From Xestospongia bergquistia (Eukaryota; Porifera; Demospongiae; Haplosclerida; Petrosiidae), in assembly GCA_963965975.1 (NCBI GenBank), contig OZ014424.1, positions 5,042,380 to 5,106,379 of the forward strand: 64,000 bases of DNA, read 5' to 3'. Below, in pieces: positions 5,907 to 13,258 of this stretch. The translations under genes were made by a program, and so were the position numbers. Below the pieces are notes generated by a model. That model did not search any database. It was not told the DNA's origin and worked only from the letters and a program-made list of their open reading frames with translations. Numbering within the stretch: the first letter of the stretch is position 1; every line of letters starts with the position of its first letter.

Positions 5907-7145
5907 ATGGATATCTTCAAATGTTCTTTTGTATTTATTGTATTAATAACTCTCTCTCAGTCTGTAGTGATTGATTTAAATAATGATAACTTTGATCAAG
6001 TGAGTCTTTTATCATTTATTGACGTAATTTTACTACATTATTAATGTAATTAATTAACTATTAATTGTTTTTTTTGTTACAGTATGTTGACGGATCAAAA
6101 GCTGCATTTGTAGAATTTTACGCTCCATGTAAGTTAGTTAACAGTAATTAACACATCTGATAGTAATTAGCATATATATATACACTTTAGAATCTCATTC
6201 CACCTCATACCAATGTCCCAAGGAGTCTGGGTATGAGACTTAACAATATGAAGCTATGCCTATAGTAGGGTATCAACACTAGTTTAGGTTTTAGGGGGTG
6301 GGGTTATGGAAGGATACTAATTATAATATTATAATATACAAACCAGGTGGATAACCACACCCGTAATTACGTTAAAACTATGTCTTTATAGGGTGTGGTC
6401 ACTGCAAGCGTCTCGCCCCTGCTTATGAGGAAGTTGGAAAGACATTTGATAATTCTGATGATGTAATAATTGCTAAAGTTGATGCTGATGCCGACAGAAC
6501 TCTCGGAGGACGATTTGGTGTGCAAGGTTTTCCCACGCTTAAGTTTTTTCCTAAAGGATCAACCACACCAGAAGAGTGAGTCATAAAACTTTTAATTTTG
6601 GTGTCATCTCTTAACAGTTATAGTGGCGGACGTTCAGCAGAAGAGATTATAGCTTTTATCAATGAAAAAACTGGTAACTAGTGAACTTTAAACTTTCTAG
6701 TATGATCTTTTACGTCATTAGGTTCTCGAGGTCGTGTCAAAAAGGATGCCAGTAATGTTGTCGACTTAAATCCTAGTAACTTTGACAGTATCGTCATGGA
6801 TACAAACAAAGATGTCTTAGTTGAGTTTTATGCTCCTTGTAAGTGATGGATAAGGATATGCTAATCATGTCATGTGACTGTCATGTGATCCTCTTGTCTG
6901 ATAATTTAGGGTGTGGTCATTGCAAGGCCTTGATTCCTACTTATGAGGAGGTAGCTACGACTTTTAAGAATGATGAAAATGTGAGTCATTAATGTTGAGT
7001 TTAGGATTATTAATACAATAGACTATTGTTAACTCTAATTAATTAATTATCATTGTTCTCATCCCTTTAGTGTGTGGTAGCTAAAATTGATGCTGACAGT
7101 AGCAGAGACATTGCTTCTAAGTAAGTTAGTAACTTTTCATTGTCA

Positions 7146-7176
<31 letters not shown>

Positions 7177-8273
7177 AGGTATGGTGTAAGTGGTTACCCA
7201 ACCATCAAGTTCTTTTCTAAAGACAAGAAAGAACCAGAAGATGTAAGAAATACAAGTTATTTTTTAAAATGTGTTTCAATTTTTGTAGTACTCTGCTCCT
7301 AGAGGTACTCAAGATTTTATTGATTATTTGAACGAAAAATGTGGAACACATCGTGTCAAAGGTGGTAGTCTTAATGCTGATGTAAGCAATATTATAATAA
7401 CCTAATATACTAACAATACACTAACAGTATACTAATAATATACTAAAAATATACTATAGGCTGGTGTTATTAAAGAATTGGATGATTTGGTGAAAAAGTT
7501 CATGCAAGAAAGTGACTCTCGTGATGCTATTCTCTCTGAAACTGATGCTAAGGCTAAAACACTCGATAATCCTAAGTAAGAAGGAGAGAGGGAGGGCTTT
7601 AACTAAGTCTCGATGAACTACTGACTAATATTCCTATGAGAGTAGTTATTCCCCTCTATGACTTAATACATATTACAACTCATAACAAACTTACCACCAT
7701 AATATGCAATGACATAGTCTCTAATATGACATCATTGAAGAAATATAGATTTCATCATTAGTTGTACAAATAAACGGAATTAAAGTTGTTTTGTCTTCCA
7801 TAACTTGTTTGTACATTAATAGAACATTTCTAACTAGAGCAGTATCTCGTCTAAAAAAATTACATTAAAATTTGTATATATATTCTTTACAATATATTAT
7901 AGCATTGGATTTAGAGCTAGTATCATATTGACTACCAAAATGGTAGTTTTATTTGATAGCAGCTGTCACTTAGCTCTCCTCTACATAACACACTCTCTCT
8001 TTCTCTTAGTGCTGAGTACTATGTCAAAGTGATGAATAAAGTCAAAGAGAAAGGAGATGATTATATTCAATCGGAGAGTGATCGTCTTGGGCGCATGATG
8101 AGTTAGTTACAAATCCTTTAACTTACTCTGTCCATTTTTGTCATGCCATTCATCTATTATCTCTTTTCATGTGTCCATTTTGTCTTATCATCTTTCCAGA
8201 GGGTGGGATCAATCCAAAGAAAGTTGATGAATTTACTAAAAGAAAAAATGTCCTCAAGAAATTTGAACTGTAG
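5907..8273 (+). CDS. Protein disulfide isomerase with two thioredoxin domains and an ERp29-like tail
   Basis: This ER oxidoreductase forms and rearranges disulfides. The start at 5907 gives a signal peptide ([16 protein letters not shown]). Two thioredoxin domains follow, each with an active site APWCGHCK, in the exons starting near 6392 and 6911, and each with the cis-proline region ([16 protein letters not shown]). The C-terminal third ([13 protein letters not shown] through [13 protein letters not shown]) is helical and fits the ERp29 C-terminal (D) domain. The order a-a-D is known from Dictyostelium PDI and plant PDIL2-type enzymes, and differs from vertebrate PDIA6. The protein ends KFEL, a variant of the KDEL retrieval signal. 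Exons are bounded by good GT/AG sites. One acceptor at about 7178 uses a CT microsatellite as its pyrimidine tract. Confidence 0.85.
6184..6242. repeat. Degenerate copy of the GTCTCATACCCAGA snapback element
   Basis: This sits in the PDI intron. AATCTCATTCCACCTCATAC on the left pairs imperfectly with TCTGGGTATGAGACTTA on the right. It is related to the hairpins at 10159 and 62917. Confidence 0.55.
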
Positions 8274-11963: not shown

Positions 11964-11970
11964 TATAAAA
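11964..11970 (+). promoter_or_regulatory. TATA box for the helical secreted protein gene
   Basis: TATAAAA lies 86 bp upstream of the start codon at 12056. This is a plausible distance for a TATA-driven, inducible promoter with a short 5' UTR. Most other promoters in the window show no clear TATA box. Confidence 0.5.
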
Positions 11971-12055
11971 GATTACTGCTTCTTGGTTCAGAATCACAAC
12001 AACTTAAAGTGAAGTAATTATCAAGTTAACCAAACGAACCGATCTATAACTAGTA

Positions 12056-13068
12056 ATGGAATATACCTTCTTTGTTGTGGCCATCTTGTGCTTCAACTAC
12101 TCTATAGCCAGTCCAATTTTTATCATTCCACTCGACCCTGTTAGTATTGTTGATCCAGAGCCATCACTGTTAACATTCAATGAAGCCCTTCAGCTCTATG
12201 ACAAAGTTGTTCATGCTAGAGATTCTTGTCTGAATGTTAAAGATAGAATAGTGAGTGTATGCAAATATTATTGCACAGCTAGTAATATTGTGATTTTTTT
12301 CATGATGCAGTTGACCCTAAGATTTGGCGGCAATATTACACCAAGGTTTCCACTTGTTAATTGTGTGTTGAAACCTCATTACAATTGTAAAATTAATGTA
12401 AGTAGAATTTTTTTCTTATTCTTGTTAATAATGTTACAAACAGTAATGGATTGTTGATGTAATTTGAAATCCTTAGTTTGTATTTCTATTACGCAAACTA
12501 TTCATTATCTGTGTCATGCTATAAACATGTCTATTTTGCAGGAACTTACTTCTGCTTTGCAGCATCTTCGTAAAGATCTAGATCATCTTCAGGAGATGTG
12601 GCCAGTATTGTTAAATGTTATCAATTATGAGAACAGTATTAATAACAGTGACATTTTATTGCTATTATATTTTAATTCTTGTAAAGAGAAGGTAAAAGTT
12701 GTAATCAACTCTCTTCAAAATACAGTAAGTGATAACTGTACACTTTCTCCTATATTATCTCACATCTGCAGTTTAGTGATTCATCTGGTGATGATGCATC
12801 TGGTCTTATTGCACCTGGACAATATGACTTTGTAAGTTTCTTGTACTTAAAAAATTAACATTAACAGTACATGTACCATTTTGTACTCTGTGGCTTAAGT
12901 TGAAACTCTCTCTCTCTCTCCCTCCCTCCATAGACCAAACCTGCACGTTGTTCCAATTGCACATCATTCTCTGATCAATATTATAACATGTATGAGTTAC
13001 ATGAGCTCCTTCAGTTCACACTAGATAATGTGTATTGTATTAAGGAGACACTAAACCCTAATCATTAA
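12056..13068 (+). CDS. Secreted four-helix protein, cytokine-like (219 aa)
   Basis: Five exons (12056-12250, 12311-12397, 12542-12724, 12772-12831, 12934-13068) join with every intron in phase 0. A signal peptide (FFVVAILCFNYSIASP) is followed by four predicted amphipathic helices: A about 40-65 (FNEALQLYDKVVHARDSC); B about 95-123 (LTSALQHLRKDLDHLQEMW); C about 129-154 (SDILLLLYFNSCKEKVKVVI); D about 187-213 (YELHELLQFTLDNVYC). A long A-B loop (exon 2) and C-D loop (exon 4) separate them, and Cys residues sit in helices and loops. Putative N-glycosylation sites are NIT, NVS-like and NCT. Exon-to-helix layout and phase-0 introns are typical of class I/II helical cytokine genes. I see no diagnostic cytokine motif, so the assignment rests on architecture and could be another small helical secreted family. 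Confidence 0.7.
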
Positions 13069-13258
13069 AAACTAGCTAACTAAATATCCAAACTAAAATA
13101 ATGTTAATTTTTTTTCATTTTTTGATTAATTTTGTAAAAATAATTATAATACAATTATTGATAACTTTTAATAATGTAATAACTTTTAATAATGTAATAA
13201 CTTGCAAAAATTATGAAACATACAAAAATTAGTTATAATAAAAAAAGAACTTCCTCTT

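Follow-up and report, generated by a model that had tools for sequence, protein, structure and literature searches.

A five-exon sponge gene for a predicted secreted helical protein with an exon plan parallel to that of helical cytokines

A gene of five exons was recognized at positions 12056-13068 (+) of a 64-kb stretch of DNA from the sponge Xestospongia bergquistia (contig C14:5042380-5106379); this whole stretch is called the window below. The joined exons encode 219 amino acids (aa) and are separated by four GT-AG introns of 60, 144, 47, and 102 nucleotides (nt). All four introns are in phase 0, and the length of every exon is a multiple of 3. The donor is GTGAGT once and GTAAGT three times, and all acceptors are AG. 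The product is predicted to be secreted and rich in helices, and its exon plan is one strong formal parallel to cytokines. A role as a helical signalling protein is possible, though somewhat short of probable.

The gene model was recovered with a chain finder, which demanded at least four introns of 40-160 nt, GTRAGT donors, pyrimidine-rich acceptors, and a product of at least 200 aa; these settings were chosen after the gene model was known and are not neutral. The scan covered 314 kb on both strands, consisting of 200 kb upstream, the window, and 50 kb downstream. It returned one chain, the candidate gene itself, and the 219 aa, five exons, and four phase-0 introns given in a preliminary description of this DNA were regained with identical coordinates. 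Because the chain is unique in 314 kb and appears in none of 300 dinucleotide shuffles of the window, the five exons are a real gene and not a chance assembly.

It is very improbable that the exons were joined by chance after all or that some other junctions are used, for example with intron 1 kept. Codon usage is neutral and fails to set the gene apart: its frame is the best of six, yet 46% of 3000 random stop-free pieces score as high with a codon table built from six open reading frames of the window. Intron 1 is open in frame, and a laxer finder (three introns, 150 aa) prefers to retain it, which gives 239 aa with 20 extra residues at the border of helix A and the AB loop. The laxer finder also picks a chain within a neighbouring protein disulfide isomerase (PDI) gene and models it partly wrongly. 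Such errors would have to be reconciled with four strong donors, a single consistent phase, and the failure of the shuffles to yield a chain of this kind.

Exon 1 (12056-12250, +) encodes the predicted signal peptide (about residues 1-18), an N-terminal proline-rich stretch, and the putative helix A. It is followed by intron 1 (12251-12310, +), which is stop-free. Exon 2 (12311-12397, +) corresponds to the AB loop and includes cysteines 83 and 91 and an N-glycosylation motif at residue 73. After intron 2 (12398-12541, +), exon 3 (12542-12724, +) encodes the predicted helices B and C with a turn of five residues between them. Intron 3 (12725-12771, +) separates it from exon 4 (12772-12831, +), whose 20 aa begin the CD loop, and intron 4 (12832-12933, +) lies within this loop. 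Exon 5 (12934-13068, +) encodes the remaining CD loop, a candidate helix D (about residues 186-213, placed by helix propensity), and the stop codon. The split of the exons into helix A, loop, helices B and C, loop, and helix D, as described before, stands, with the addition that exon 5 also carries the remainder of the CD loop.

The N-terminus is hydrophobic at residues 3-13, as part of a signal-type segment of about 18 residues, and no membrane segment is found after it. This agrees with the signal peptide and the secretion proposed in the preliminary description, and both are predicted here as well. The size and the signal segment fit the class I pattern, in which the protein is soluble, secreted, and about 130-220 aa long. 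Seven cysteines follow the signal peptide; outside it there are also three N-glycosylation motifs.

Structures were predicted with AlphaFold2 for exons 1 and 3, each cut out singly, and the helix limits near the intron positions are therefore biased. Exon 3 alone, modelled with no alignment, is predicted as a two-helix hairpin of residues 96-123 and 129-153, with a mean predicted local distance difference test (pLDDT) score of 82.1 and a predicted template modelling (pTM) score of 0.53, and the B-C helical hairpin can be proposed with moderate confidence. The model of exon 1 alone contains helices at residues 2-18, the signal-type segment, and 41-64 at a mean pLDDT of 56.5, and helix A is predicted with low confidence. 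Compared with shuffled sequences, the helix propensity gives p-values of 0.018 for A, 0.14 for B, 0.051 for C, and 0.077 for D, and the presence of four long runs without proline or glycine has a p-value of 0.011. Helix D, a candidate placed by its propensity, may complete a four-helix bundle.

The long AB and CD loops and the short BC turn would fit an up-up-down-down bundle, since short loops are expected of an up-down-up-down bundle and long overhand loops of an up-up-down-down bundle. The long first and third loops of the preliminary description are retained: AB and CD are long loops, and the BC turn has five residues.

The exon plan is the one strong formal point of likeness to cytokines. 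Human IL-4, in the exon plan printed in PMC4905449, is divided into signal peptide with helix A, AB loop, helices B and C, and helix D, with phase-0 introns. The part of PMC4929537 consulted gives four phase-0 introns for teleost type I interferon genes. The PDI gene serves as a local comparison for phase. It is located at 5908-8273 (+) of the window and encodes 351 aa with two WCGHC thioredoxin motifs; its 11 introns of 42-434 nt have the phases 0, 1, 2, 1, 1, 0, 2, 0, 0, 2, and 1. Phase 0 is observed for 4/4 introns in the candidate versus 4/11 in the PDI gene. At the rate of the PDI gene, the chance of 4/4 is about 0.017, a rough value for a candidate that was picked among others in the preliminary description. 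The chance that four introns all fall outside helices is about 0.048, which is also rough and hinges on the assigned helices.

A candidate TATA box, TATAAAAG, is positioned at 11964-11971 (+). The TATA-type element described upstream of the gene is present and starts 92 nt before the ATG. This octamer has eight copies in the window, four per strand. If it works as a TATA promoter, it would make the gene inducible. On the 3' side, a possible poly(A) signal AATAAA is found at 13237-13242 (+), and a second poly(A)-type hexamer at about 13064. A tandem repeat array with a 58-bp unit is located just 3' of the candidate gene, from 13872 to beyond 14800.

The proposed product would be secreted in soluble form, with about 200 aa arranged in four long helices and a BC turn of five residues between long AB and CD loops. 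It may act as a diffusible helical signal that certain cells release and others bind through a surface receptor. An Fn3-type chain feeding STAT could serve as this receptor. Alternatively, it could belong to the tyrosine-kinase receptors, of which such genomes have many, in the way that CSF-1 and SCF use such receptors in vertebrates. These two vertebrate helical cytokines signal via receptor tyrosine kinases, and the tyrosine-kinase receptors of sponges are thus a reasonable candidate class.

Several observations weigh against a cytokine. Only helix B is clearly amphipathic: its hydrophobic moment is unusual (p = 0.003), while those of A (0.12), C (0.26), and D (0.36) are not, and the four amphipathic helices of the preliminary description are upheld for B alone. 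In fold searches, exon 3 matches generic hairpins, with a best Foldseek E-value of 1.6. The 800 bp upstream include a single NF-kB-like motif and no STAT, IRF, or AP-1 motif. The sequence was also aligned with 12 human helical cytokines, using 1000 shuffles and unrelated helical proteins as controls. None of the 12 alignments rises above the shuffles or the controls; the best is IL-10 (p = 0.083), and the calmodulin control (p = 0.039) is better than any cytokine. The p-values are 0.86 for IL-4 and 0.42 for IFN-alpha2, and for CNTF, CLCF1, LIF, IL-6, and G-CSF they range from 0.21 to 0.94 in this test of low power. A likeness of a short motif in helix D to CNTF, spotted by eye, was rejected, as CNTF has a p-value of 0.21 against 1000 shuffles and the calmodulin control is better. 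No paralogue was found in the genome (146.46 Mb in 21 contigs): at E-values up to 10, with two first-look candidates, the search returned the gene's own locus alone. The part of PMC13203501 available to us reports IL6 in vertebrates only.

Other searches were also negative. In Pfam nothing comes near a cut-off, and the best match is LysC (E-value 0.16, 12.4 bits vs. a cut-off of 27). No match to PDB sequences was obtained at E-values up to 10, and the PF01110 profile gave none, with its controls silent too. With tblastn, the best non-self E-value in the 200 kb upstream and the window was 0.052, for a match with stops inside, and that in the 50 kb downstream was 1.5. Exon 3 gave 120 pattern stretches in genome_contigs and 29 in viral_contigs, two collections without animals by design, and 0 were confirmed in either. 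Sequence comparison has little power here, because human CNTF itself, searched against PDB at E-values up to 10, finds two CNTF entries and misses all other cytokines. In the open literature (titles, abstracts, and passages, with subscription papers and preprints outside the scope), no earlier account of a sponge helical cytokine was recognized. PMC10176882, in which a sponge proteome is annotated on the basis of structures, does not include the words cytokine, interleukin, secreted, or immune.

Two of the expected signalling partners, JAK and a cytokine receptor, were not identified in searches that came out empty or uninformative, which counts against the cytokine interpretation. In its favour, STAT is present in the genome, and its canonical N-terminal exon was recognized by eye. 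JAK was not identified in the genome: the JAK-specific domain PF17887 gave two weak matches (E-values 0.31 and 0.75), the first of them inside a Big_5-like repeat protein, and PF18377, the other JAK domain, gave no match, with its controls silent too. The human JAK2 kinase domain gave 129 matches, and the best one, the only one read, is a Src kinase by eye. The scan for receptors proposed in the preliminary description identified no cytokine receptor in the genome: the receptor domain PF09240 gave no match, with the controls also silent, and PF09294 gave 50 matches, which are Fn3 arrays. Three of these matches, at two places (C13:549 kb and C2:5.616 Mb), were read; by eye they look like a receptor phosphatase with Ig and Fn3 domains and a membrane protein with one Fn3, neither being a cytokine receptor.

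In the passages seen of PMC13203501, JAK and STAT are placed in Porifera, IL6R first in molluscs, and IL6-family ligands in vertebrates. In those of PMC6797617, no CRLF3 receptor was detected in Porifera. PMC8242945, as far as its text was available, assigns almost 200 putative cytokine receptors, mostly with tyrosine kinase, Ig, and Fn3 domains, to Halichondria panicea, and suggests a Porifera-specific receptor superfamily.

Dense clusters of matches to tyrosine-kinase-like domains are located at C6:1621386-1696870, C11:5918060-6074274, and C5:1160235-1483605. They look like tandem gene arrays, and those on C6 and C11 are mostly on one strand. The genome search also revealed EGF arrays with teneurin-type EGF matches, which together with STAT and, by eye, the receptor phosphatase and the Src kinase mark the genome as that of an animal; its size and compactness fit a sponge. 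A stop-free open frame of 41,554 aa was reported at about C13:5979636 (-). A 1-kb sample of this giant frame contains no N and has one minus-strand frame fully open; its similarity to bacterial Ig-like (Big_5) repeats falls just short of the Pfam cut-off. If real, the frame would be among the largest single-exon reading frames known.

The preliminary description had offered an early helical cytokine or a convergent bundle. What stands of it is a predicted secreted, helix-rich product with long-short-long loops and an exon plan in which all introns are in phase 0; the up-up-down-down bundle, a receptor, induction, and kinship with cytokines are so far hypotheses. The cytokine reading is plausible but unproven, with an exon-plan parallel on its side and no evidence of homology. 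A small secreted helix bundle that is not a signal, but a carrier, defence, or matrix protein peculiar to its lineage and resembling cytokines by convergence, is about as likely. Helical hairpins are common, and the absence of a sequence tie to cytokines, of a paralogue, and of an identified receptor partner fits such a protein; by itself, however, this reading does not predict that phase-0 introns mark the borders of the loops in an exon plan like that of IL-4. It is quite unlikely that the protein belongs to a known secreted family other than the cytokines and has diverged so far that a single-sequence search misses it. One query without orthologues has little reach, which leaves room for such a relative, whereas the best Pfam match stays far from its cut-off. 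Descent from a common ancestor with class I cytokines, with the phase-0 exon plan kept in an animal branch that predates the nervous system, is a subset of the helical-signalling reading and is itself unlikely.

If kinship with class I were true, helical cytokine signalling would date back to the earliest animals, and its ancestral receptor may have been an Fn3 or tyrosine-kinase receptor of sponge type, linked to an existing STAT. Since JAK and STAT are placed in sponges and IL6-family ligands in vertebrates, sponges have part of the machinery, but no helical ligand is known from them. A sponge helical cytokine would fill this gap and open the origin of this class of signalling to testing. 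A secreted helical protein would be a natural candidate ligand for the putative receptors of sponges. If the gene is unrelated to cytokines, it would still be a useful case of convergence in fold and exon plan.

Among known systems, the IL-6/CNTF family resembles the candidate in its length of about 200 aa and in its helices of 24-28 residues, which are typical of long-chain cytokines. Class II cytokines, such as IL-10 and interferons, have six helices. The candidate differs from them in that four long helices are suggested, and the models of exons 1 and 3 contain no helices beyond the signal segment, A, B, and C; it shares its four phase-0 introns with the teleost type I interferon genes (PMC4929537, in the part consulted). 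Unpaired (Upd) of insects represents invertebrate ligands acting via a cytokine receptor and JAK-STAT, according to the passages of PMC13203501. The growth-hormone-like (GH-like) type I helical cytokine of amphioxus, as presented in the available part of PMC9010856, is a secreted protein of 208 aa from an invertebrate chordate with low identity to the vertebrate ones; it comes with a receptor-like partner and with residues like those of growth hormone, neither of which is known for the candidate. The closest correspondence is with IL-4/IL-13, short-chain class I cytokines. The predicted helices and the CD loop of the candidate are longer, and its exon 3 is 183 nt vs. 126-177 nt in tetrapod IL-4. 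Its order of signal peptide with helix A, AB loop, helices B and C, CD loop, and CD loop with helix D matches the printed plan of human IL-4 exon by exon, with one extra phase-0 intron, intron 4, in the CD loop.
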